This document shows, piece by piece, positions 11,722 to 37,834 of a DNA stretch of 64,000 bases. Source of the DNA: Collinsella vaginalis (GTDB lineage: Bacteria; Actinomycetota; Coriobacteriia; Coriobacteriales; Coriobacteriaceae); the NCBI RefSeq assembly GCF_900176655.1, contig NZ_LT838844.1:134178-198177 (forward strand). Reading direction: 5' to 3'. Below the pieces are notes generated by a model that saw only the letters and a program-made list of their open reading frames with translations, was not told the origin of the DNA and did not search any database. Positions within the stretch are counted from its first letter, which is position 1, and each line of letters starts with the position of its first letter. A program made the translations under genes and the position numbers.

Positions 11722-15288
<3,567 letters not shown>

Positions 15289-16175: not shown

Positions 16176-16472
16176 ACCCCACAACACACGGCCCACAGCT
16201 CATCCCTATGCACCCGCCCGATCTCGCCGCTCCCGTGCATCCGCGCCAGGCACCGCCCCCGCTCCCTGAGTCCACGCGGCGTCAGTAGGCGTGTCGTCCC
16301 TGCCCCTGAGCCTGCGTGGTGCCAGCGGGCACACTACGCCTGCCGCATTAAACAACCCTTGCCCCGTTGGATGAGCCATATTTCACAACCGCGGTCCGTG
16401 GGATTGGAAAAATAGCTCATAATAAGCTGCTCATTGCGTGGGGGCGCGGGTGTCGGTTGGGGAGGGGCTTTG

Positions 16473-17891
16473 ATGGGCCACGGTTCGCGAAGGCGTACGC
16501 TGCGGTTTCATGCGGCGTTGCTTGCTTCGAAGATGACGATGGCCGCCTTGCGGGTGGCTCGGCGTGCCGGTGGGCAGCTGCCAGGGGTGGTCGCTGAGAG
16601 CATCTGCCCGGGGTTCTTGGGGCAGCTTGAACAGCCGAAGCAGATGGTCATGGTGACGGGCACCAACGGCAAGACCACGACCACCAACCTCATCGCCGAC
16701 CTGCTGGTGGCGAATGGGCGCGAGGTGGTCACCAACCGGAAGGGCGGCAACGTCGCCGCGGGCATCGCGAGCACGTTGATCCGCAACGCCACGTTGACGG
16801 GGCGTCCCCGGTGCGAGACGGCGGTGCTCGAGCTCGACGAGCGGAGTGCCCGCCTCGTATTTCCGCATATCACCCCCGACGTGCTCACCATCACCAACCT
16901 GTATCGCGACACCTTCACGCGCAACGCGCATGTGTGGTACGTGTTCGACATCCTCTCGCAGGCCATTCCCGGCGAGTCGCGGCTCGTGCTCAACGCCGAC
17001 GACCTCATCAGCGCCCGGCTCGCCCCCGAGAACACCCATCGCTCGTATTACGCGATCGGCCGTCTGCCGGAGGATGGGGCCGAGCGAGAGGGCATCGTGA
17101 GCGATCTGCCGGCCTGCCCGGACTGCGGCGGGCATCTCACGTACGAGTACGTCCACCTCGGCCACATCGGGCGGGCGACCTGCGACTGCTGCGGGCGCAC
17201 CAACCCCGCTCCGCAGTTTGAGCTCGTGGACGTCGACCGGGAGGCCTCGATGATCACGGTTCGCGAGCAGGGGGACGTCCCGTCAGAGCAGCGCTACCGC
17301 ATTTCCGCCGGCTCCATCACCGACCTCTACAACCTGCTCGCGGCGATCGGCACCGCGCGCCTGCTCGGCCTTGAACCCGCTGAGATCGCCCGGGCGCTCG
17401 AGGGAGGCGTCGGCGTCGTGGCCTGCCGGTACAGCGAGGTGGAGGCGCGCGGCAGGCGGCTCGTGCGCATAGCCTCCAAAGGGGAGAACGGCATGGCCTG
17501 CTCGCGCGGCTTCGCGAACATCAAGCGCGAGCCCGGGAGCAAGGCGGTGGTCCTCATGCTCGAGGATTACTACCTGGCGAAAGACCCCACATCCACAGAG
17601 TTCATCGGCTGGCTCTACGAGACCGACTTCGAGTACCTGAACGACCCGAGCATCAAGCAGGTCGTTATCACGGGCGTCCGCTCGGAGGACATGCTGCTTC
17701 GCGTCCTGCTCGCCGGCGTCGATCCGCAGCGGGTCACCTGCGCGAGGGACGGGCTTGAGGCGGCGCGCGTCGTCGACTGGCGCGGGACCGACGCGGTGTT
17801 CTACTCCCACGCCATCCACAACGAGCATGTGGCCGAGGAGAGCCGCGAGGCGCTTCGCCGCCTCATCGAGGACGAGGGGGAGGTGGCGTAG
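16473..17891 (+). CDS. MurT-like Mur ligase family protein, copy 1 (divergent)
   Basis: The ATG at 16473 follows GGGAGGGG and gives 472 residues. The ATP-binding Mur ligase core is intact: GTNGKTTTT at 63-71, VLELDE at 118-123 and NADDL at 174-178. The MurT-specific zinc ribbon is present as Cys215/218 and Cys237/240. The C-terminal DUF1727 domain is divergent. Where typical MurT has an NDN-ADG-D-SW-WD segment, this protein has EDYYLAKDPTSTEFIGWLYE, with Glu383 where the conserved Asp would fall. The next gene starts directly after its stop and encodes a GatD-like partner. MurT/GatD normally amidate D-Glu of lipid II; here the glutaminase apparatus looks lost, so the true substrate is open. 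Confidence 0.85.
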   Translation: MGHGSRRRTLRFHAALLASKMTMAALRVARRAGGQLPGVVAESICPGFLGQLEQPKQMVMVTGTNGKTTTTNLIADLLVANGREVVTNRKGGNVAAGIASTLIRNATLTGRPRCETAVLELDERSARLVFPHITPDVLTITNLYRDTFTRNAHVWYVFDILSQAIPGESRLVLNADDLISARLAPENTHRSYYAIGRLPEDGAEREGIVSDLPACPDCGGHLTYEYVHLGHIGRATCDCCGRTNPAPQFELVDVDREASMITVREQGDVPSEQRYRISAGSITDLYNLLAAIGTARLLGLEPAEIARALEGGVGVVACRYSEVEARGRRLVRIASKGENGMACSRGFANIKREPGSKAVVLMLEDYYLAKDPTSTEFIGWLYETDFEYLNDPSIKQVVITGVRSEDMLLRVLLAGVDPQRVTCARDGLEAARVVDWRGTDAVFYSHAIHNEHVAEESREALRRLIEDEGEVA

Positions 17892-18629
17892 ATGGACCGC
17901 ATCGTGATCGAGAGCCTGTTCCCGGAGTTCAGCAGTCAGGGCGGCGACAATGGAAACATCATGTACCTGCGCGAGAGCCTGCCGGATGCGGAGATCATCG
18001 AGACGCGTTTCACGGACGAGCCGGCCTTCGCCAGCCGCGATGTGTCGATGATCTACCTCGGCTACATGACGGAGGCCGAGCAGGAGCAGGTCGCCGCGAA
18101 GCTCATGCCCTATCGTGACCGTCTCCGCACGCTCGCCGACACCGGCTGCGTGGTGCTCTTCACCGGAAACGCGGCGGAGATTCTCGGCCGTGCGATCGTG
18201 CGCGATGACGGCCGCACCATCGCGGGGCTCGGGCTTTTCGACTTCACGACACGTTTGAGCTATCGGCATCGGCGGACCGAGGTCTTCCTCGGCGAGCTGG
18301 TTGACGGACCGGGGGAGGAGCCCCTGGAGGTCGCAGGCTATCAGATACGGTTCACCGAGGTGGACGGCGACAACAGCGCGGAGCCGCTCTTCCGCACCGT
18401 GGTCGGTCGCGGCCTTGGCGCGGAGGGCGGATTCGAGGGTTTCCGTCGCGGGACCCTGTTCGCCACGTGGCTCGCAGGCCCCGTGCTCCCGCTGAACCCG
18501 CTTTTCACGGAGTACCTGATCGGCCTGCTCGGGTCGACCGCGCCGGCTGCGTATCGCGCCGTCGCCCTCGACGCGTACCGGAAGCGCCTGGAGGAGTTCC
18601 GCGTACCGGGCATCAGGATGCCCATCTGA
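17892..18629 (+). CDS. GatD-like glutamine amidotransferase-fold protein lacking catalytic Cys and His, copy 1
   Basis: The 245-residue product aligns along its length with GatD: LFPEFSSQGGDNGNIMYLRE at the N-terminus, AGLGLFDFTT in the middle and AGPVLPLNPLFTEYLI near 195-210. The nucleophile elbow, ICGGYQFLG in Staphylococcus aureus GatD, reads FTGNAAEILG here, so Thr91 replaces the Cys. The region equivalent to LHGPILPKN reads LAGPVLPLN, so Ala195 replaces the catalytic His. GFENHGGRT is replaced by GYQIRFTEVDGD. It cannot be a normal glutaminase. It is translationally coupled to the MurT-like gene (no gap), which argues they still form a complex. Confidence 0.85.
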   Translation: MDRIVIESLFPEFSSQGGDNGNIMYLRESLPDAEIIETRFTDEPAFASRDVSMIYLGYMTEAEQEQVAAKLMPYRDRLRTLADTGCVVLFTGNAAEILGRAIVRDDGRTIAGLGLFDFTTRLSYRHRRTEVFLGELVDGPGEEPLEVAGYQIRFTEVDGDNSAEPLFRTVVGRGLGAEGGFEGFRRGTLFATWLAGPVLPLNPLFTEYLIGLLGSTAPAAYRAVALDAYRKRLEEFRVPGIRMPI

Positions 18630-18941
18630 GCGCCCGCGGCCGCAGCTGTTGTGCCCGCGCCCGGCCCCCATCCCGCTCACCCGTGGCGCACGCGGAGGCG
18701 AGCGCCTGGTCGGCGGACCCGTCAACCGCGTTTCGGTCCATCCGCGGCGCGCGGCGGAGAGCCCCTGCGGTTCGCCGGCTCAGGATTTCACGCCCCTTCC
18801 AACCCGAACCATCCCGGTAAAACAGCTCGTGAGCGTGTGGGCCGCATGGTTGGCTTCTTACAGTTCTGACACCTTGCGGGGGCAATCCGTCTCTGGCCTG
18901 CAGGTTCTCCCCAGGCGCACAAAGCCCCAGTTCATCGGCGG

Positions 18942-18969
18942 TTGAACAATATGAACCATCCCGTATACT
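18942..18969 (+). promoter_or_regulatory. Promoter of the second MurT/GatD-like pair
   Basis: TTGAAC at 18942-18947 and TATACT at 18964-18969 are separated by 16 bases, a good housekeeping-sigma match in a short AT-rich patch. The ATG of the next gene lies 40 bases downstream, with AAAGGTGG as ribosome site. The rest of 18630-18941 is non-coding and shows no other feature. The promoter implies the two pairs are separate transcription units. Confidence 0.7.
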
Positions 18970-19008
18970 TATCTTGATTTACGGACCTATAAAGGTGGTT
19001 TTATAAAT

Positions 19009-20412
19009 ATGGGGACATCACCTCGCTTCCTCTTGGGGCTGGCCGCCGCCAAGGCGAGCATCGCGGCCCTGAGGGTCACGCGCCACTCCGGCGGGCAGGT
19101 GCCCGGTGTCGTTGCTGAGGCGATCGACCGCACGTTCCTCGCGGATATGCCCAAGCCCGCGCGCATTGCCTTCGTCTCCGGCACCAACGGCAAGACGACC
19201 ACCTGCAACCTGCTCGCCGACCTGCTGCTGGATAACGGGGTCGACCTGGTGACCAACCGTGCGGGCGGCAACATCGTCACCGGTATCGAGAGCACGCTCA
19301 TCAAGAACGCGACCATCACCGGGAAGCCGCGGGTGGATTGCGCCGTCATGGAGCTAGATGAGATCTCGTTCCGGACGGTCATGCCCCATGTCGATCCCGA
19401 GCTCCTGCTGGTCACGAACTTGTACGGGGACACCTTCACGCGCAGTGCCGATCCCGCCTACGTCTTCGACGTCATGTCCGCGCACATCCCGGCGCGCACG
19501 CGCCTCGTGCTCAACGCAGACGACCTGATCAGCTGCCGCCTGGCGCCGCACAATACCAACAAGGTGTTCTTCTCCATCGGGCGCATGCCCTTCGACACGG
19601 CGGAGCCCGAGGGCATCGTCTGCGACCTCACCGCGTGCCCAGACTGCGGCGGTCGCCTGGAATACGACTACTGCCATCTGCGCCATCTTGGTCGCGCCCA
19701 TTGCGCGGTCTGTGGGCTTGAGAGCCCCGCACCCGATTACGAGGTGGTCGAGATCGATCGGCAGGCCCGCACCTTCACCGTGAAGGAGCACCTGCATCCC
19801 GGCACCCCGCAGTTCACCTACCCGCTCTCGGTGCACTCGGTCGCCAACATCTACAACGTGCTCGCCGCCGTCGTCACCGCGCGAGAGATGGGTCTCACGG
19901 GTGAGCAGATCGTCGCCTCGCTCGCAGGCGGCGTGAGCGTCACGGCAGCACGGTTTCAGGCGCGTGAGGCGGGCGGCAAACGGATCCTCACGATTGCCTC
20001 CAAGGGCGAAAACGCCACTGCGGCATCGGTCGCCTTCAACACGATCCGCAAGGAGCCGGGAACCAAGGCCGTGGCCGTCATCATCTCCGATAGCCACATG
20101 GCCGAGGTTCCCGAGGACGTCGAGTACACGGGCTGGTACTACCAGGCCGATTTCGAGTACCTCAACGATCCCCAGATCAAGCAGGTTATCGTATACGGAG
20201 CCACGAGCGACGACATCATGCTGCGCCTCGCCACAGCGGGGGTGGACCCCGCGATCACCAAGGTCGCGCGCAGCGAGGCCGAGATCGCGGACCTGTTTGA
20301 CCTCGATGCGGTGGATGGCGCCTACATCGCGCACTGCGTGACGAACGTCGGGATCTCGCACCGCGTGGCGGACAAGCTGGTTGATCGAGCGAGGAGGACC
20401 GCGCATGTCTGA
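19009..20412 (+). CDS. MurT-like Mur ligase family protein, copy 2 (divergent)
   Basis: This 467-residue paralogue of the gene at 16473 keeps SGTNGKTTT at 58-66, VMELDE at 113-118, NADDL at 169-173 and the zinc ribbon Cys210/213 and Cys232/235. Like copy 1 it has SKGENATAAS in place of the usual KNP-type segment and DSHMAEVPEDVEYTGWYYQADFE in place of the NDN-ADG-D-SW-WD motif. Gln379 falls where the conserved Asp would be. The two copies share many segments (ADFEYLNDPQIKQV against TDFEYLNDPSIKQV) but are well diverged, so the duplication is old. It overlaps its GatD-like partner by eight bases. Confidence 0.85.
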   Translation: MGTSPRFLLGLAAAKASIAALRVTRHSGGQVPGVVAEAIDRTFLADMPKPARIAFVSGTNGKTTTCNLLADLLLDNGVDLVTNRAGGNIVTGIESTLIKNATITGKPRVDCAVMELDEISFRTVMPHVDPELLLVTNLYGDTFTRSADPAYVFDVMSAHIPARTRLVLNADDLISCRLAPHNTNKVFFSIGRMPFDTAEPEGIVCDLTACPDCGGRLEYDYCHLRHLGRAHCAVCGLESPAPDYEVVEIDRQARTFTVKEHLHPGTPQFTYPLSVHSVANIYNVLAAVVTAREMGLTGEQIVASLAGGVSVTAARFQAREAGGKRILTIASKGENATAASVAFNTIRKEPGTKAVAVIISDSHMAEVPEDVEYTGWYYQADFEYLNDPQIKQVIVYGATSDDIMLRLATAGVDPAITKVARSEAEIADLFDLDAVDGAYIAHCVTNVGISHRVADKLVDRARRTAHV

Positions 20413-21160
20413 GGTCGAGAGCACGCGCGCCGTGATCGAGGTGCTCTTTCCCGAGTACGGCAACCAAGGCGGCGACAACGGGAACGCCCTGCTGCTGCGC
20501 CAGAGCCTTCCCGGAGCCACCTTCATCGAGACGCGTTACGGGGACGAGCCCTACTTCGTGCGCAACGAGCCCTCGCTGATCATCATGAGCTCGATGCCCG
20601 AGATGCAGCAGGAAAACGCCCTCAAGGTGCTTCTGCCGCGCCGCGACCGCCTGGCCGCGCTCGTAGACGCGGGTGTGCCCATGCTCGTGACCGGCAGCGC
20701 CTGTGACCTGCTGTGCCAGCGGATCGTGAGTCCTGGCGGAACCGCCATCGAGGCCCTTGGGATCGTCGACGCCGTGTGCAGGCGCAGCGAGCCGCACCGT
20801 TACCTCGACGTGAACCTCGGCACCTTCGACCCGGCCGACGGCACGCCCCCCATCGAGCTCGTGGGCTTCAAGATCCAGTTCACCCAGATCGAGGGGGACA
20901 ACAGCACCTCGTACTTCAGCAGGAACGAGGTTGGCTTCGGCCTGCGGGAGGGCATGCAGCTCGAGGGTTTCCGCAAGCGGAACCTGCTCGCGACCTGGAT
21001 GCTCGGCCCGATCCTCCCGCTCAACCCCGATTTCACGGCTTGGCTGCTGCGCCTGGTCACCGGCCGGGACATCCGCCCGGCGCATGAGGCCCTGTCGCGC
21101 GCGAGCCACGCGGCGCGGGTGAAGGAGTTCCGCATCAAGGGCGCGGGCATCCACGTGTAG
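20405..21160 (+). CDS. GatD-like glutamine amidotransferase-fold protein lacking catalytic Cys and His, copy 2
   Basis: The ATG at 20405 lies inside the end of the MurT-like gene and follows GAGGACCGCGC; the product is 251 residues. EYGNQGGDNGNALLLRQSLP matches the GatD N-terminus. The nucleophile position is Thr96 in VTGSACDLL; Cys100 nearby is four residues off and not in the elbow. The His position is Leu200 in WMLGPILPLNP. VGFKIQFTQIEGDNS replaces the GFENHGGRT segment. Features kept in both copies (GGDNGN, TG-A, GDNS, GP-LPLNP) suggest selection for a structural or new role rather than decay. Confidence 0.85.
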   Translation: MSEVESTRAVIEVLFPEYGNQGGDNGNALLLRQSLPGATFIETRYGDEPYFVRNEPSLIIMSSMPEMQQENALKVLLPRRDRLAALVDAGVPMLVTGSACDLLCQRIVSPGGTAIEALGIVDAVCRRSEPHRYLDVNLGTFDPADGTPPIELVGFKIQFTQIEGDNSTSYFSRNEVGFGLREGMQLEGFRKRNLLATWMLGPILPLNPDFTAWLLRLVTGRDIRPAHEALSRASHAARVKEFRIKGAGIHV

Positions 21161-21331
21161 GGAGCGGGTCTGGCCTGACCTGGTCGTGGTACAGGGCCGT
21201 TACGGGCACCCCGCGCAATGCGGCCCCCGCGAACAGGCGCCCCTGTGCGGGAACCCTGCGCCGCTCGCTCGCCCGGCCCGCGTGGCCGACCACATGCGCC
21301 CCGATCATGTTGTAAGGAGGTGGCGGACCGC

Positions 21332-22729
21332 ATGGCCGCGAAGAAGTTCTCGCTCACCGGGGTGGTGCTGTCCGTCATCTGCGTGGTGCTCACCATCGAG
21401 GCTGCGGCACCCGCCGCTGCCATGGGGAACGTCCAGTTCTTCTGGTGGGGCCTCCTCATCATCACGTTCCTGATCCCGTACGGCCTGGTGGTGGCCGAGC
21501 TTGGAACCACCTACGACTCGGAGGGCGGTCTCTACGACTGGGTGCGCACGGCCCTGGGAGACACCTGGGCGGCGCGGTGCGCCTGGTGCTATTGGGTGAA
21601 CTTCCCCCTCTGGATGGCGAGCCTTGCCTGCATCTTTCCCGGCATCATCGGCCTGATCGTCGGCATGCCGGTGCCGTTGCCGCTGGCGCTCGCCATCGAG
21701 CTCGCTTTCGTGTGGATCGTCACGCTCCTGTCCTGCTCCCCGCTCTCCGAGGCCGAGTGGATCCTGAACGGCGGCGCCATCGTGAAGGTGGCCATCTCCC
21801 TGGTGGTGGGCGGACTCGGCATCTGGTTCGTCTGGACCCACGGGTTTGCCAACGACATGGCCCCCGCCACCTTCCTCCCCGACCTCACCGATCGGATGTC
21901 GCTCACCCGCCTCTCAGTCATCCTTTTCAACTTCATGGGCTTCGAGGTCGTGGCCACGTTCGCGGGTTCGATGAAGCGCCCCGCCCGCGACATCCCCCGG
22001 GCCATCGTGGCCGGTGGATTGGCGGTTGCTGCGATCTACCTTCTCTGCGGCGTTGGCATCGGGGCTGCCGTTCCGCGCCATCGGCTCTCGATGGACTCCG
22101 GCATCATGGATGCGGTCGGGGCCATCCTCGGCCCGGGGCATCCGGTCGCAGTCGCGGTCGGCGCGGCCTTCCTCCTCACGTTGTTCGCGAACATGGCGGG
22201 CTGGTCCTTCGGGGTCAACTCGGTGGCCTGCCGTGCGGCGGGTCACGGCAACATGCCGCGTGCCTTCGCGGTGCGCTCGCGGCGGACCGGCATGCCCAAC
22301 GGCTCCGCGCTGTTAAACGGCTCCGTCGCCAGCGCGGTGCTGCTTCTGCAGATCCCGCTGGGCCCGGGTTCCCGTGCGTTCTGGGCTCTGTTCTCGGCCA
22401 ATATCGTCTTTCTCCTGCTGAGCTACATCCCGATGTTCCCGGCGTTCTGGCGTCTGCGTCGCCATGACGCGCGGCTCCGCGTGTTCCGCGTCCCCGGCGG
22501 CGACAGGCTCCTCATGGCGATCCTGGCCGTTCCGGCTGCCGAGATTGTGCTCTCGGTCATCGCGACGACGGTGCCCCTGGGATCTGCCCCGGGGGAGCTT
22601 GCCAAGGTTCCGGTGCTCGTGGGGGTTGCGGCCCTGCTCGTCATCGGCGAGGCGGTGCGGATTGCCTCAAAGCACGGCCGCTCCGTTGATCATCCCGGTA
22701 TCGCGCGGCGCCCGCGCGCAGAGGGCTGA
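21332..22729 (+). CDS. APC family amino acid permease
   Basis: The ATG at 21332 has AAGGAGG at 21314-21320 and gives 465 residues. About twelve hydrophobic segments follow MAAKKFSLTGVVLSVICVVL. The helix-1 glycine motif of APC transporters is seen as EAAAPAAAMG, and GGLYDWVRTALGDTWAARCAW matches helix 2-3 of glutamate/GABA-antiporter-type members. FNFMGFEVVATFAGSMKRPARDIPRAI is the conserved helix 6 and loop. It is an inner-membrane amino-acid or amine transporter. It lies about 170 bases after the second GatD-like gene on the same strand and might supply a substrate to that system, but this is only proximity. Confidence 0.88.
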   Translation: MAAKKFSLTGVVLSVICVVLTIEAAAPAAAMGNVQFFWWGLLIITFLIPYGLVVAELGTTYDSEGGLYDWVRTALGDTWAARCAWCYWVNFPLWMASLACIFPGIIGLIVGMPVPLPLALAIELAFVWIVTLLSCSPLSEAEWILNGGAIVKVAISLVVGGLGIWFVWTHGFANDMAPATFLPDLTDRMSLTRLSVILFNFMGFEVVATFAGSMKRPARDIPRAIVAGGLAVAAIYLLCGVGIGAAVPRHRLSMDSGIMDAVGAILGPGHPVAVAVGAAFLLTLFANMAGWSFGVNSVACRAAGHGNMPRAFAVRSRRTGMPNGSALLNGSVASAVLLLQIPLGPGSRAFWALFSANIVFLLLSYIPMFPAFWRLRRHDARLRVFRVPGGDRLLMAILAVPAAEIVLSVIATTVPLGSAPGELAKVPVLVGVAALLVIGEAVRIASKHGRSVDHPGIARRPRAEG

Positions 22730-23185
22730 CCGGGCCCTACGCGCCGATGTGGTCGAGGAGCCCCTGCATCGCCCTTGCGCGGCAGCCGGCCACGGCCTTC
22801 CAGACGCTGATCGGCAGACAGTCCCTGTGTTGCCCCCGCACGGAGGGCTGACCGCCCCCGTCCTGTCGGCCACGTGTCGGTGACGTTCGGGTCGGGTTCT
22901 CCCATAGTTGCATAATAAGCACAATACGCCGAATGGGAAAAATCGTATCGACCTGTTTTACCACTTTGGTGCATCAAAGCGAAACTGCGCTGTTTGCCAG
23001 TCGCTTTAGTGAATCTACATAGTTTTTGCCCGTTGCCGGCTCAGTGCTACCGTTCGGCGGAACGTTGGCCTGGAGTGTATAGAAATCTCTCTAGGGAGAA
23101 TATACAATCAACTCGACTTGCGCGGCGCCGCCCGCAAGCGAACCAGGTTATGACGGGGATCCAATCAGTCAGAAAGGGGACTCCT
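22730..23185. other. Intergenic region before carbamate kinase
   Basis: This 456-base gap turns AT-richer toward its right end. TGTATA at 23076-23081 and TATACA at 23101-23106 form an inverted pair around TCTC-TCTAGG-GAGA, a possible operator or leader hairpin. The word GAGGGCTGACCG occurs twice (22722 and 22842). No gene is supported. Confidence 0.5.
23076..23106. promoter_or_regulatory. Imperfect palindrome upstream of arcC
   Basis: TGTATA and TATACA arms enclose an inner TCTC/GAGA pair. It lies about 80 bases before the arcC start and could be a repressor or activator site for arginine or fermentation control. No regulator gene is adjacent. Confidence 0.4.
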
Positions 23186-24148
23186 ATGTCCAAGCCCATC
23201 GGCAAGCCCGACCGCATCGTCGTCGCCCTCGGCGGTAACGCCCTCGGCGACACCCCGGCCGAGCAGATCGAGAAGGTCGGCGACGCCGCCCACGCGCTCC
23301 TCGGCCTCATCGAGCAGGGCAACGAGATCATCATCACCCACGGCAACGGCCCGCAGGTCGGCATGATCCAGAACGCGTTCGCCGCCGCCCACGACGCCAT
23401 CGGCACCCCGTCCATGGACCTGCCCGAGTGCGGAGCCATGAGCCAGGGCTACATTGGCTACCACCTGCAGCAGGGAATCGGCCGCGAGATGCACCGCCGC
23501 TACAAGCGCTGGCACGCCGCCACGGTCGTCACCCAGATCGAGTGCGATCCGGACGATCCGGCGTTCGCCAACCCCACCAAGCCCATCGGCCCGTTCTACA
23601 CCGAGGAGCAGGCCAAGCAGATCATGGCTGAGAACCCCGAGATGACCTTCGTCGAGGACTCCGGTCGCGGCTGGCGTCGTGTGGTCGCCTCCCCGCAGCC
23701 CAAGAAGATCGTCGAGGCCGACTCCATCCTGAACCTGCTCGACAACGAGTTCATCGTCATCGCCTGCGGCGGCGGCGGCATCCCCGTGGTGCGCGACTAC
23801 AACGACAAGGGCTGCTACAAGGGCGTGGCCGCCGTCATCGACAAGGACATGGGCGGCGAGCTTCTCGCTGAGGACTGCGGCGCCGACGTGCTCTTCCTCC
23901 TCACGGCCGTCGAGCATGTCGCCATCAACTTCGGCAAGCCCAACCAGCAGGAGCTCGAGGAGCTCACGGCTGACGAGGCCGAGAAGCTTGCTGACGAGGG
24001 CCAGTTCGGCAAGGGTTCCATGGAGCCCAAGGTCCGCGCCGCCATCAAGTTCGCACGCTCCCGCAAGGGCCGCACCTGCATCATCGGCGCCCTGGATAAG
24101 GCCGCCGAGACCATGGCCGGCCTCTCTGGCACGCGCATCGTCGGCTAA
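23186..24148 (+). CDS. arcC: Carbamate kinase
   Basis: I placed the start at ATG 23186 after AAAGGGGA, giving 320 residues; the upstream in-frame extension lacks a ribosome site. The family signatures are complete: VVALGGNALG at the N-terminus, ITHGNGPQVG, MSQGYIGY, IACGGGGIPV near residue 190 and VIDKDMGGELLAEDCGAD. The enzyme makes ATP from carbamoyl phosphate in the arginine deiminase or related pathways. The other arc genes are not in the window. A strong terminator follows, so it is monocistronic. Confidence 0.96.
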   Translation: MSKPIGKPDRIVVALGGNALGDTPAEQIEKVGDAAHALLGLIEQGNEIIITHGNGPQVGMIQNAFAAAHDAIGTPSMDLPECGAMSQGYIGYHLQQGIGREMHRRYKRWHAATVVTQIECDPDDPAFANPTKPIGPFYTEEQAKQIMAENPEMTFVEDSGRGWRRVVASPQPKKIVEADSILNLLDNEFIVIACGGGGIPVVRDYNDKGCYKGVAAVIDKDMGGELLAEDCGADVLFLLTAVEHVAINFGKPNQQELEELTADEAEKLADEGQFGKGSMEPKVRAAIKFARSRKGRTCIIGALDKAAETMAGLSGTRIVG

Positions 24149-32788: not shown

Positions 32789-35700
32789 ATGGAGCAGCCA
32801 GCGGATGACGCTGGCGATTCCGCCTCCGCACCAGCGTCTGAGACAGACGAGGCATCGCCCGAGTCTGCGACAGATGAGGCAACGTCCGATACGGTCCCGT
32901 CGCAACCCGCTGAATCCGACGCTCATGTTCTAGCCGCCGCAGCAGAAGATCGCGCTGCCACCCCGGCGAACCAGCCCGTCATAGAGGCGAGCCTGGTGTC
33001 CACAGATGGCAAAACCAACTACGGATCGTTGAGCGATCCCAAGACCCTCATCTCCCTTCCGAAGGGCCAGCAATTCAAGCTGCGCCTCCATGCGGTGTTC
33101 CCCTCCGCGTCCGATAAGTCCATCGACGTGGCCTTGCCCTACGGCATGGATTGGAACGACTCGAGCTTCAAATTCGATACGACGGCGGGCTGGTACGGAG
33201 AGCTTCAGAAAGACGGCATCATCATACCGAGCAAGCAGACCGAGGATTCCAAGAAGCCCGTTTCGGTGTACAACTGGAAATCCGCAGGCACGCTCACGAT
33301 GAAGTTCCAGGACACCACCCAGGAAGTCACCTTCGACGTGCCCATGGGCCTTCAGACCTACGATACGGGCCTTGCATCCATCTCCGATGCCATCACCGTC
33401 ACCCAGAACTACACCAAGGAGGGCGATGCTCCGACCGCATCCCGACTCGGCACCGATATCGAGGTTACCAAGCGGCCCGAGCTTACCAAAATCGGCTTCT
33501 GGGGGAATTACTCCGAGCTCTTGAACAAAAACGGCAATATCGAAGTGGGTTTGGATGACGCTCGGGGCACCGGCCACAATGTGTCCTGGATGGCCAACCT
33601 GGACGACGGCTGGGGCGTAAGGCGCGTGCTCGAAGACTACTTCTATGCGATGCTCGTCCCGGAGAAGGCGGAGTATCTCGGTCGTAATGCCCCCGATGAG
33701 TACGGGGGCGTACAAGAGAAAGATCTCAAGATTCTGAGCCCGGGCGAGAAGTTCACCATGAGCACCGGCGCCGAATATACCGTTCCTGCCGGCAAGAAAC
33801 TCTACGTGTGGGAGCGCAAAGAGAACATCACCACTGCGGTCATCGCCGATCAATACGAATTCAACCCCATGTGGCGCTTCCCCAAAGAGGACTTCCCCGT
33901 AGGGAGCATCGCGGAGATCAGCCAGTTCGATGTAGGGGTGAAGTACTACGATCCGACGGGCCAGAGTGCCTACCTGCCCTACGACGCAAGCCGTCTTAAG
34001 ACGATGAAGTACGAGATCGTCGAACCCAAGGAAGATGTGTATGCAAACAGCACGCTCGTCGCTAAGGATACCAATCTAGAGCGGTGGGAAGGCTATATCG
34101 CCGATAACGAGGTATACCTGGGAGCTCCTGGCTTCGAGCACACGCAAGAGCGCACCCTCGGTTACTTCACGGTTGGAAACCGCGGCTCGGGAAATAGCCG
34201 GAACAAGACCATCATCATCGATTACGACGTCAACGACACCAAGATCGCCGGCGTGACAGCACAGGCGCTCCCGCTCATCTCACGCCAGAAGAAGGATGGC
34301 ACCCCTGCCACCCAGGTGAGCGATTTCAAGGTCACCCTCTGGAACAGCAAAACCGACGAGACCACGGACTATACGATCGACGCCTCGAAGCTCAAACAGC
34401 GTTTCCGCGTGGAAGACGTATTGGGCAAGCACGTCGAGGGTATGTATATCAAGCATATCGAATACAAGATCGACACCATCCCTTCTAAAACTGCGCTGAC
34501 TGCTTGGGACAGGGGTCTGGCCGGCGAAGAAACCGAATTTGAGGACAGCTCCCTGTATTTCTTCGGCAACGTCCTTACCAACGACGTGCGTGAAAAGGGT
34601 CGCTGGGGAGACGATCCCTCCCTGTTCAAGACCGTCATCCGTATCGAGAACACGGGTGCGGAAGAGCCGGATTGGGCGTATCGCAATCAATACAAGTGGG
34701 ACTTCGGCGACGGCAGGGGTGAAGTTGTGTTCCAATATCCCAGCCGCTCGGCGGATCATGTGACCATCGGCCACACCTTCACCGCATTCACGGGCAAGAG
34801 CTTCATCCAGGGTCATGGCCCGACGACCGCTTTCCATGACGGAACGGCGTATCCGCTGAATTTCGTGGTGGGCGATACGGTTCGCGACAAGGGCTTCGAT
34901 TACTTCACGCCGACCTGGGACGGCAGCGCGAGGGGCATCGAGACGTTCAAGGTTATTTACTACATCAGCCCCTTGGGCGATGACCTGAGCTTCAATATGA
35001 CCTATCGTTCCGTCGGCTCCAAGGATGCGTGGTTGCAAAAGAGCGCCGATCCGAACAACATGAGCCTCAAGCAGCCCGACGTGTCGGAGGTGCCGGCATC
35101 AGACGCCCTGAAGGCGGTCTATCCCAAGGCGAAAGTTTATAAGCTCGATTTCTCCAAGCTCACGTCCGACCAAGACATATACGATACGCGCGCCTACGGT
35201 CCGTCGGTGTACTGGAAAGAGTCTGCCGAGGCGATCCCCTACGCCATCAACGCGGGGTACTGGGCGTATACCGCTGACTGCGCGTTGCATGTAAGCTTCG
35301 CCTCCGATCCGTCGAAGGACGTGCCGGGCGAGTACACCGAGCTTATGTGGTTCGAATACGACACCGATACCGACGAAGATCTCGTCTATGGTTCGGGCAT
35401 GGCCAAAGACAAGTGGGATCTGAACGGCAACGGCAGCACGGAAGACATGCTCGGCCGGCCCATGGGAAGGTGGGTCGTCAACGCCCCGACCGATCTGGTC
35501 GTGCGGTCTGCCGCCAAGATGGCGACGCAGCCCGATACGTCGTATGTCACCTACGACGGCATGTCCAAGACCTTGATCGGCGCCAACAGCACCGTCGACT
35601 ATCGTTTGGTCGCGAACAACCCCACGCCGTCGGACGCCAACGGCCTGATGATATACTGGCCGGTGCCGAAAAAAGACCAGAACTGGGGCAAGGCGCTCCA

Positions 35701-37834
35701 GCCCAACGGCGCCTTCCAGTTCGACCTGTTCCTCAACGGCGGGATCCAGAGCGAGCTGCCCGAGGGCTATACCGTCTCCTATGCGAGGAACGTGAAGCCG
35801 ACTTCGCAGGCGCTTGATTGGGATAGTTTCGCGTGGACCGAGGAGAGCGATACGGCTTCTTGGACGCAAGAAGACTGGGACGCCGTCAATTTCGTCCGCA
35901 TCTCTTCTCCTGAGGACCGCGCCTTCAAAGCCGGTGAGAGCCAAGAGTTCAAGTTCAATTTGACCCTTCGCGACGTTGCCCCAGAGGATTTCAAGAAGAA
36001 CCTCATCGACGTCTTCACTCCAGCCTATCTGCGTGACCTCGGCTCAGGCAAGGGCTACCGGTACGGCCAGCCCGTGGCGATGACCCCCACCCCTGGCATG
36101 CTCAAGGGCGTCGCCTGGATCGATGCGGATTTCGACGGCACGATGGACGAGGACGAGAAATCCCACGTCGTGCCTGGCTTGGAGCTCGAGCTGTACGATT
36201 CAGCCGGCAAGCTGGTGAACACCGCCGTCACGGACGAGACGGGAACCTATGAGTTCAAGGGTCTCAAGGACTGGCCCTCGACGGCATCTGGTGAGCTCGA
36301 GGCCTTTACCGTCAAGGTGAAAAACCCCACCGACCCTCAGTCTGCGGAGGCCGGCACCTTCGTGCGCTTCTCGCCCACCAAGGGCGACATGGTCATGACC
36401 GCTTCCGACGACCAGACTTCGGCCAGCGTGGAAGGGGTAGCCATAGATAATCCGAAGGCGCTGGCCCTCAACATCGGGCTCACGCGGGTTACCAAGGTTG
36501 ACGTGCAGAAGACCTGGGTCGAGGGCAAGAACGCGGACGGCACGGATGGTGCCGGGATTGCCCACGATCCGGTCGAGGTGGCGCTTCTCATGGATGACGC
36601 CGATGGCGAGAAGGTGGCCGCTCAAGACATCGATGGCAAGGCGGTTCCCGCAGCCAGCCTGTCGAATGAAAACGACGGCTCCTGGAAAGCCTCCTTCACC
36701 AATTTGCTGGTGAGCAATCCTGCCACCAATGCCGCTGCCGCGTACACGGTTAAGGAAGCATCTGTCCCTGAGGGGTACGTTGCTTCGTATGCATACGAGA
36801 CCAAGGAATCCAAGGATGCGCGCACGGGTGATACGCTGAGCTATACCGTGGCAACCGTTACGAACACGCGCATCCACGGCAGCATCGAGGTTTCCAAGAC
36901 GGACAAGGCGGATGCCAAGAAACTTCTGCCAAACACCAGCTTTGAGCTCAGGAAAGACGGTGTCAAGGTGCGCGGGGGCACTACTGACGAGAAGGGCGTG
37001 CTCACCTTTAGCGATATTCCGTATGGCACCTACGAGGTGGTGGAGACCGCCGCGCCCGAGGGCTATGTGCTCGTTTCAACGCCGCATGCCGTAAAGATCG
37101 AGACCCAGGATCAGGTTGTTAAGCTCGCCGTTGATAACGCGCAGGTCAAGGGCACGGTTGTGGTGACCAAGACCGATGCTGAGGACGGGGATAAGCCGCT
37201 TTCCGGTGCGAAGTTCGAGCTGCGTCGGGGCGATAAGGCTGTGGACACCCAGACCACGGGAGACGACGGCATGGCTACGTTCGAGGACGTGCTGTACGGC
37301 TCCTACACGGTGGTGGAGACCGAGGCCCCCGAGGGGTACGTGCTGGATAAAACGGCGCATGAGGCAAAGGTCGACACCCAAGACCAGGTGGTCAAGCTCG
37401 CCGTGGCCGACGCCAAGATCAAGGGAGCCATTCTCGTTTCTAAGGTCGATGCTCAAAACCAGAGCAAGAAGCTCCCCGGTGCCACCTTCGAGCTGCGCCA
37501 GGACGACAAGGTCATCGAGAAGGCCACCACGGGAGCCGACGGAACCTTGACCTTTGAGCATGTTCTCTACGGCTCCTACACGCTGGTGGAGACGAAGGCC
37601 CCCGAGGGCTACGAGCTTGATCAGAAGCCCCTTGCCGTCAAGGTTGTCGAAGACGGTGCACTGCTCACGTTTGAGGTGAAAAACACGGCTCTGCCAGCCA
37701 AACCGACACCGGTGGAGCGCGAGCTTCCCAAGACCGGCGATTCGGCTGCTCAGGCTGCTCCCGCGCTCTTCGTCGGCGTGGCGCTCAGCTCCCTCGCCCT
37801 GGCTCTTCATAGGAAGAGGAACCAGGTGAGGTAA
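32789..37834 (+). CDS. LPXTG cell-wall-anchored surface protein with SdrD-B, Cna-B and three SpaA-type repeats
   Basis: The 1681-residue frame starts at an internal ATG with no ribosome site; the real start is probably 32664 (see the poly-G entry). An acidic Ser/Ala/Glu/Asp-rich linker (1-60) leads into about 1040 residues of adhesin-like beta structure that I cannot assign. A SdrD-B-type domain (GMLKGVAWIDADFDGTMDED) begins near 1103. A Cna-B domain (VDVQKTWVEG) lies near 1234-1360. Three SpaA-type domains, each with a VSKTD or VTKTD lysine and a VVETxAPEGY glutamate for isopeptide bonds, span about 1363-1634. The sorting signal ELPKTGD near 1645, a hydrophobic stretch and RKRNQVR end the protein. 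Base composition is clearly less GC-rich than the neighbours, suggesting transfer. No sortase gene is in the window. Confidence 0.9.
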   Translation: MEQPADDAGDSASAPASETDEASPESATDEATSDTVPSQPAESDAHVLAAAAEDRAATPANQPVIEASLVSTDGKTNYGSLSDPKTLISLPKGQQFKLRLHAVFPSASDKSIDVALPYGMDWNDSSFKFDTTAGWYGELQKDGIIIPSKQTEDSKKPVSVYNWKSAGTLTMKFQDTTQEVTFDVPMGLQTYDTGLASISDAITVTQNYTKEGDAPTASRLGTDIEVTKRPELTKIGFWGNYSELLNKNGNIEVGLDDARGTGHNVSWMANLDDGWGVRRVLEDYFYAMLVPEKAEYLGRNAPDEYGGVQEKDLKILSPGEKFTMSTGAEYTVPAGKKLYVWERKENITTAVIADQYEFNPMWRFPKEDFPVGSIAEISQFDVGVKYYDPTGQSAYLPYDASRLKTMKYEIVEPKEDVYANSTLVAKDTNLERWEGYIADNEVYLGAPGFEHTQERTLGYFTVGNRGSGNSRNKTIIIDYDVNDTKIAGVTAQALPLISRQKKDGTPATQVSDFKVTLWNSKTDETTDYTIDASKLKQRFRVEDVLGKHVEGMYIKHIEYKIDTIPSKTALTAWDRGLAGEETEFEDSSLYFFGNVLTNDVREKGRWGDDPSLFKTVIRIENTGAEEPDWAYRNQYKWDFGDGRGEVVFQYPSRSADHVTIGHTFTAFTGKSFIQGHGPTTAFHDGTAYPLNFVVGDTVRDKGFDYFTPTWDGSARGIETFKVIYYISPLGDDLSFNMTYRSVGSKDAWLQKSADPNNMSLKQPDVSEVPASDALKAVYPKAKVYKLDFSKLTSDQDIYDTRAYGPSVYWKESAEAIPYAINAGYWAYTADCALHVSFASDPSKDVPGEYTELMWFEYDTDTDEDLVYGSGMAKDKWDLNGNGSTEDMLGRPMGRWVVNAPTDLVVRSAAKMATQPDTSYVTYDGMSKTLIGANSTVDYRLVANNPTPSDANGLMIYWPVPKKDQNWGKALQPNGAFQFDLFLNGGIQSELPEGYTVSYARNVKPTSQALDWDSFAWTEESDTASWTQEDWDAVNFVRISSPEDRAFKAGESQEFKFNLTLRDVAPEDFKKNLIDVFTPAYLRDLGSGKGYRYGQPVAMTPTPGMLKGVAWIDADFDGTMDEDEKSHVVPGLELELYDSAGKLVNTAVTDETGTYEFKGLKDWPSTASGELEAFTVKVKNPTDPQSAEAGTFVRFSPTKGDMVMTASDDQTSASVEGVAIDNPKALALNIGLTRVTKVDVQKTWVEGKNADGTDGAGIAHDPVEVALLMDDADGEKVAAQDIDGKAVPAASLSNENDGSWKASFTNLLVSNPATNAAAAYTVKEASVPEGYVASYAYETKESKDARTGDTLSYTVATVTNTRIHGSIEVSKTDKADAKKLLPNTSFELRKDGVKVRGGTTDEKGVLTFSDIPYGTYEVVETAAPEGYVLVSTPHAVKIETQDQVVKLAVDNAQVKGTVVVTKTDAEDGDKPLSGAKFELRRGDKAVDTQTTGDDGMATFEDVLYGSYTVVETEAPEGYVLDKTAHEAKVDTQDQVVKLAVADAKIKGAILVSKVDAQNQSKKLPGATFELRQDDKVIEKATTGADGTLTFEHVLYGSYTLVETKAPEGYELDQKPLAVKVVEDGALLTFEVKNTALPAKPTPVERELPKTGDSAAQAAPALFVGVALSSLALALHRKRNQVR

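Follow-up and report, generated by a model that had tools for sequence, protein, structure and literature searches.

Lipid II carries a D-Glu residue whose alpha-carboxyl is amidated by canonical MurT, and in several Gram-positive bacteria this amidation is important, or even essential, for cross-linking. In Collinsella vaginalis, four intact and consecutive genes on the + strand encode two MurT-like ligases, each followed by a GatD-like partner, and neither pair keeps the glutaminase residues of the known enzymes. What would such a ligase attach, and to which acceptor? In the window (by which we mean the whole stretch of 64,000 nucleotides analysed), murT1 (about 16473..17891, in an open reading frame that opens at 16434, with a purine-rich stretch preceding the start at 16473) is followed by gatD1 (17892..18629), and murT2 (19009..20412) by gatD2 (20405..21160), which overlaps the murT2 stop. 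Two landmarks on the same strand frame the group: the pyruvate:ferredoxin oxidoreductase gene (PFOR, 11722..15288) upstream and the carbamate kinase gene arcC (22994..24148) downstream. The same two genes bracket similar pairs, hereafter termed dead with reference to the glutaminase, in several Collinsella and Atopobiaceae, and the PFOR-arcC interval is a common insertion site for them. An APC amino-acid permease gene (21218..22729, + strand) completes the neighbourhood, and a reading made from the sequence alone had suggested its product as a possible supplier of the amine. We rejected this candidate: a homologue occurs near just one of 49 named dead loci, hence the permease is not conserved beside dead pairs and probably stands outside the MurT/GatD system.

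Matches to Pfam, NCBIfam and PDB entries confirm the homology of the window proteins with MurT and GatD. Scores against the NCBIfam equivalogs, 151.5 and 146.2 bits for the MurTs and 39.6 and 22.7 bits for the GatDs, are far under the cut-offs for lipid II isoglutaminyl synthase (800 bits for NF045635 and 400 bits for NF045636). The ligase core is intact. It comprises GTNGKT, E108, D110/E111, R298, K315, N316 and the zinc cysteines, all common to dead and canonical MurT, and both window MurTs have the ATP motif, E108, K315, N316 and all four zinc cysteines, which bears out the ATP site and zinc ribbon recognized in the sequence-only reading. Dead pairs share with canonical MurT/GatD the zinc ribbon, GTNGKT, E108, the GatD fold and R128, and with the complexes of S. 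aureus, S. pneumoniae, S. pyogenes and M. tuberculosis the adjacent or fused genes and a Mur ligase fold with truncated N-terminus; they differ from canonical pairs by the absence of Cys94, His189 and MurT Asp349, by an altered MurT loop 135-141, and by their low equivalog scores.

Regarding the fold, the model of a fused dead homologue from C. tanakaei An791 (L048, mean pLDDT 90.3) matches S. pyogenes MurT with a Z of 27.0 (396 residues, 3.6 A) and S. aureus GatD with a Z of 24.2 (230 residues, 2.6 A); as modelled for this homologue, and not for the window proteins themselves, the fold of both subunits is predicted to be kept in the dead form. The positions that separate dead from canonical sequences (29, 61, 63, 94, 98, 147, 149, 151, 161, 169, 189 and 201 in GatD; 135, 137, 141, 261, 297, 319, 341, 346, 347, 349 and 385 in MurT) cluster at the active sites, namely at GatD 61, 94, 98, 147, 149 and 189, and at the loop 135-141 and the segment 341-349 of MurT. 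A loop within the 135-141 region has been described as an active-site loop in S. pneumoniae (PMC6085368), and the DNAAD segment within 341-349 as a proposed contact with the stem peptide (PMC6113224).

In S. aureus, MurT D349 is the putative third member of a triad with GatD C94 and H189: C94 and D349 mutants are inactive, C94S included (PMC6113224), and the GatD variants C94A, H189A and R128A have zero glutaminase activity (PMC5871853). The Cys and His of GatD and the Asp of MurT are absent from both window pairs, and the coordinated loss across subunits, first noticed from the sequence alone, is thereby upheld. Two of the replacing residues need correction. Counting back from the conserved LG, C94 aligns with Gly92 in GatD1 and Gly97 in GatD2; the Thr formerly placed at the nucleophile position (91 or 96) comes one residue earlier, as the equivalent of S. 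aureus I93. H189 aligns, as initially assigned, with Ala195 and Leu200. MurT D349, which lies just before TSW, aligns with Phe377 in MurT1 and Tyr373 in MurT2, each preceded by a Glu (376 and 372, respectively); Glu383 and Gln379, earlier taken to occupy the place of the Asp, align with D355, a non-triad residue, so the Asp is indeed lost, at another position than supposed. No substitute Cys or His was seen in either GatD-like protein in the alignment with S. aureus GatD. R128, the residue that S. aureus uses to sequester glutamine, is kept in both window GatDs and in 78 of 80 dead GatDs, an assignment traced via intermediate sequences such as DRYTGD. Around it, Q98 is replaced by Glu in GatD1, by Asp in GatD2 and by an acidic residue in all dead GatDs, E147 has become Lys in most of them, and most members of the clade have another residue in place of the oxyanion glycine G60. 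Gly stands at the nucleophile position in most dead sequences, and the Thr93 equivalent is nearly invariant.

The idea of losses peculiar to this strain finds no support. The window pairs instead belong, from their sequences, to a widespread and deep clade of presumptively glutaminase-dead proteins in Coriobacteriia and Clostridia. Among 147 GatD sequences scored, 58 have both Cys and His and 89 are without both, with no clear mixed case; wherever both sites are readable in the 89, neither residue is kept, which amounts to joint loss of C94 and H189 in 88-89 sequences and joint retention in 58. On the MurT side, D349 is found in all canonical partners vs 7 of 78 dead ones, D346 in all canonical partners vs 1 of 78, and residue 348 is Glu in 65 of the 78. 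Trees built without the catalytic columns still split dead from canonical sequences free of error and with one parsimony change (values of 0.999 for GatD and 0.981 for MurT, and 0.939 and 0.984 after sequences were added), these trees being unrooted and giving no direction of change. Close dead orthologues have dN/dS values of 0.05-0.34, and the clade is under purifying selection. Strain-specific degradation is ruled out by the clade-wide trees and the low dN/dS.

A scan of named genomes returned the 49 dead loci mentioned above, in Collinsella (tanakaei, massiliensis, phocaeensis, bouchesdurhonensis, ihumii and provencensis), in Lancefieldella rimae and other Atopobiaceae, and in Eubacterium ruminantium, Lachnospiraceae, Clostridiaceae and Oscillospiraceae. 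A plasmid collection added Vescimonas fastidiosa, in whose annotated record the dead GatD is labelled hypothetical protein, and our literature searches found no published description of the clade. At least 28 of 391 Clostridia genomes have a dead GatD (GatD*), every one of them adjoining a MurT, and some members encode MurT and GatD* as a single protein. In a sample of 296 Actinomycetota genomes, the clade is confined to Coriobacteriaceae and Atopobiaceae: among 42 GatDs whose residues were read, all those from outside these two families have Cys and His, and a search of this sample for the clade in actinobacteria outside Coriobacteriales found none. Two dead GatDs on long branches (L137 and L144) have INN replacing TGN.

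How the dead and canonical forms are distributed can be seen in the family to which the window genome belongs. Of its 67 genomes, 36 have canonical pairs only, 16 dead pairs only, one both and 11 none; the other three have divergent MurT types only, as a third-type pair in Collinsella G035 and as an orphan MurT in the two others. Canonical and dead pairs are mutually exclusive (Fisher p 1.6e-6 over the 67 genomes, their relatedness being ignored), and the dead form replaces the canonical form in this family. The only member with both is the window genome itself. A search of this genome for canonical MurT/GatD, suggested along with the sequence-only reading, found one pair on a separate contig (C2 of G000, about 400300-402828, where the sequence is partly masked), with the motifs CGGFQLLG and YLHGPILAKNP in GatD and WLWD in MurT. 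Elsewhere in the family, a C. aerofaciens-like group (L021-L033) has canonical MurT and GatD in one frame of about 740 residues, and two genomes (G059 and G066) have MurT-like genes (L164 and L165) that lack a detectable adjoining GatD, fall on a canonical-side branch and keep Asp349. FemAB, present in 6 of the 67 genomes, five of them dead-type, is too sparse for use.

From these data we infer the acceptor, the reaction and the identity of the amine. Given triad loss with an intact ligase core, a glutamine-independent ligase appears to be the most economical reading; this part of the original proposal stands, and its permease-borne amine does not. Each pair would consist of a complete MurT ligase and a catalytically dead GatD. 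Our preferred reading, to which we give a little less than even confidence, is that dead pairs are ATP-dependent ligases that join to the D-Glu alpha-carboxyl of lipid II some amine that is not ammonia released from glutamine. This amine would be bound, with an amino acid or diamino acid the likeliest candidate, and GatD* would stay as an obligatory structural partner whose former glutamine pocket, with R128 kept and residue 98 acidic, may now accommodate it. A dead GatD can be regarded as a workable partner because the S. aureus GatD C94G mutant sustains ammonia-dependent amidation of lipid II at pH 8.5, with GatD still required (PMC3266927). This mutant resembles the dead pairs in its Gly at the nucleophile site, its intact MurT and its retained GatD, whereas the natural proteins lack His189 and Asp349 as well, and their pocket is remodelled. 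Weighing against the preferred reading is the canonical pair kept in the window genome, which mutual exclusion does not predict.

The main rival is free ammonia. The product of the dead pairs would then be the usual D-iso-glutamine of lipid II, obtained more cheaply in anaerobic habitats that are rich in ammonia. The C94G complex at pH 8.5 provides a precedent for this, and the substitution of dead and canonical pairs for each other in Collinsella also speaks for it. However, at pH 7.5 neither the canonical nor the C94G complex makes use of ammonia (PMC3266927), a tandem duplication would be superfluous where a canonical pair exists, and there would be no need for a uniform pocket change that makes residue 98 acidic in all members, turns E147 to Lys in most and alters MurT loop 135-141. 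We favour a bound amine over ammonia because both pockets are uniformly remodelled while Arg128 is kept with an acidic residue 98, and we rate ammonia alone as a serious but less likely alternative.

A change of acceptor, with the ligase acting, for instance, on another stem carboxyl or on a different polymer in place of D-Glu, would account for the alteration of both the active-site loop and the 341-349 segment with its DNAAD motif, and for the retention of a canonical pair in the window genome. We consider it unlikely, as mutual exclusion in relatives suggests that both forms serve the same step, the MurT fold and its truncated N-terminus are kept, and wall genes adjoin some dead members (GH25-like muramidase and transglycosylase-like protein by eye, murE by profile). 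Continued glutamine hydrolysis with the conserved Thr beside the lost Cys as nucleophile would agree with the near invariance of this Thr and with the kept R128, but is highly improbable with His189 and MurT Asp349 gone, the oxyanion Gly60 mostly replaced, and C94S inactive in S. aureus (PMC6113224). Equally improbable are decaying or regulatory pseudoenzymes devoid of ligase function, which the lost GatD residues might evoke but which are at odds with the intact ATP site of every member, with the dN/dS of close pairs (well below 1) and with deep conservation across two phyla.

If dead pairs do attach a bound amine to D-Glu, as we prefer, gene neighbours provide some clues to its nature. Where it can be guessed, in other members of the clade, the amine would be D-Orn or 2,4-diaminobutyrate, both diamino acids and both known from type B peptidoglycan: typical bridge residues of type B2 include D-Orn and D-diaminobutyrate, borne by the D-Glu alpha-carboxyl. 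At the PFOR-arcC site of Collinsella G035, murT and a divergent dead gatD are followed directly by an ornithine racemase homologue (orr), the sole match in the 67 family genomes, with 423 bits against NF040742, under the cut-off of 480. This MurT/GatD (locus L163, 1998-5221 of contig C10) is very divergent, with the TGN motif missing, and is weakly tied to the window pairs by its position and a weak tree placement. Its glutaminase residues were lost in a different way (VVGTTVCAFAE; NCLGP). In Clostridia, a diaminobutyrate transaminase gene (ectB) lies 119 bp after fused murT-gatD* in three Lachnospiraceae/Eubacterium loci, and one lies 20 bp after murE in two dead-type genomes, both with an Orr-like racemase. 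The succession of murE and an EctB-type transaminase at L258 and L259 suggests that these Clostridia have diaminobutyrate as the third stem residue. Orr itself is found in 7 of 28 dead-type Clostridia vs 1 of 28 canonical or presumed canonical ones (p 0.026). Such co-occurrences make a weak link because several of the Clostridia Orr genes sit in ornithine degradation loci and the E. ruminantium ectB adjoins an NRPS-like gene and an ABC transporter. Besides these transaminase and racemase links, inspection by eye of the 28 Clostridia dead pairs revealed no common partner. Since neither orr nor ectB was found in the window genome, we do not name its amine.

In its widest form, the proposal would make the dead clade a lipid II ligase that adds a bridge amino acid or other amine to the D-Glu alpha-carboxyl and so gives Clostridia and Coriobacteriia walls of type B or a related type, with the two tandem window pairs adding two different amines or acting in sequence; we regard this as possible, though on balance doubtful. 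We know of no enzyme that attaches the type B bridge, and dead MurT/GatD would be a concrete candidate if the amine is a diamino acid. The two would share the same carboxyl, and in some members orr or ectB lies beside dead MurT/GatD or murE. Our literature searches found no peptidoglycan structure for member species of the clade. As judged from the 296-genome sample, and if Microbacteriaceae were in it, the clade is no explanation for the type B walls of that group.

Two other systems offer partial parallels. In Selenomonas and Veillonella, polyamines are carried by peptidoglycan D-Glu, again an amine on the alpha-carboxyl, and the ligase gene is not named in that literature (PMC10628300). Archaeal MurT-like proteins are likewise MurT-type ligases without a working glutaminase (PMC11915815), but they have no GatD, whereas dead pairs have retained and conserved theirs. 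A clade this widespread that has given up glutamine but not the ligase would imply a different modification at D-Glu in gut and rumen anaerobes, with possible consequences for the cross-linking of the wall, for how cells respond to wall-active drugs and for their recognition by host receptors. Elsewhere in the window, positions 32789-37834 encode a protein of 1681 residues whose C-terminus has a weak match to the SpaH/EbpB family of LPXTG pilins (79.9 bits, for a cut-off of 95).
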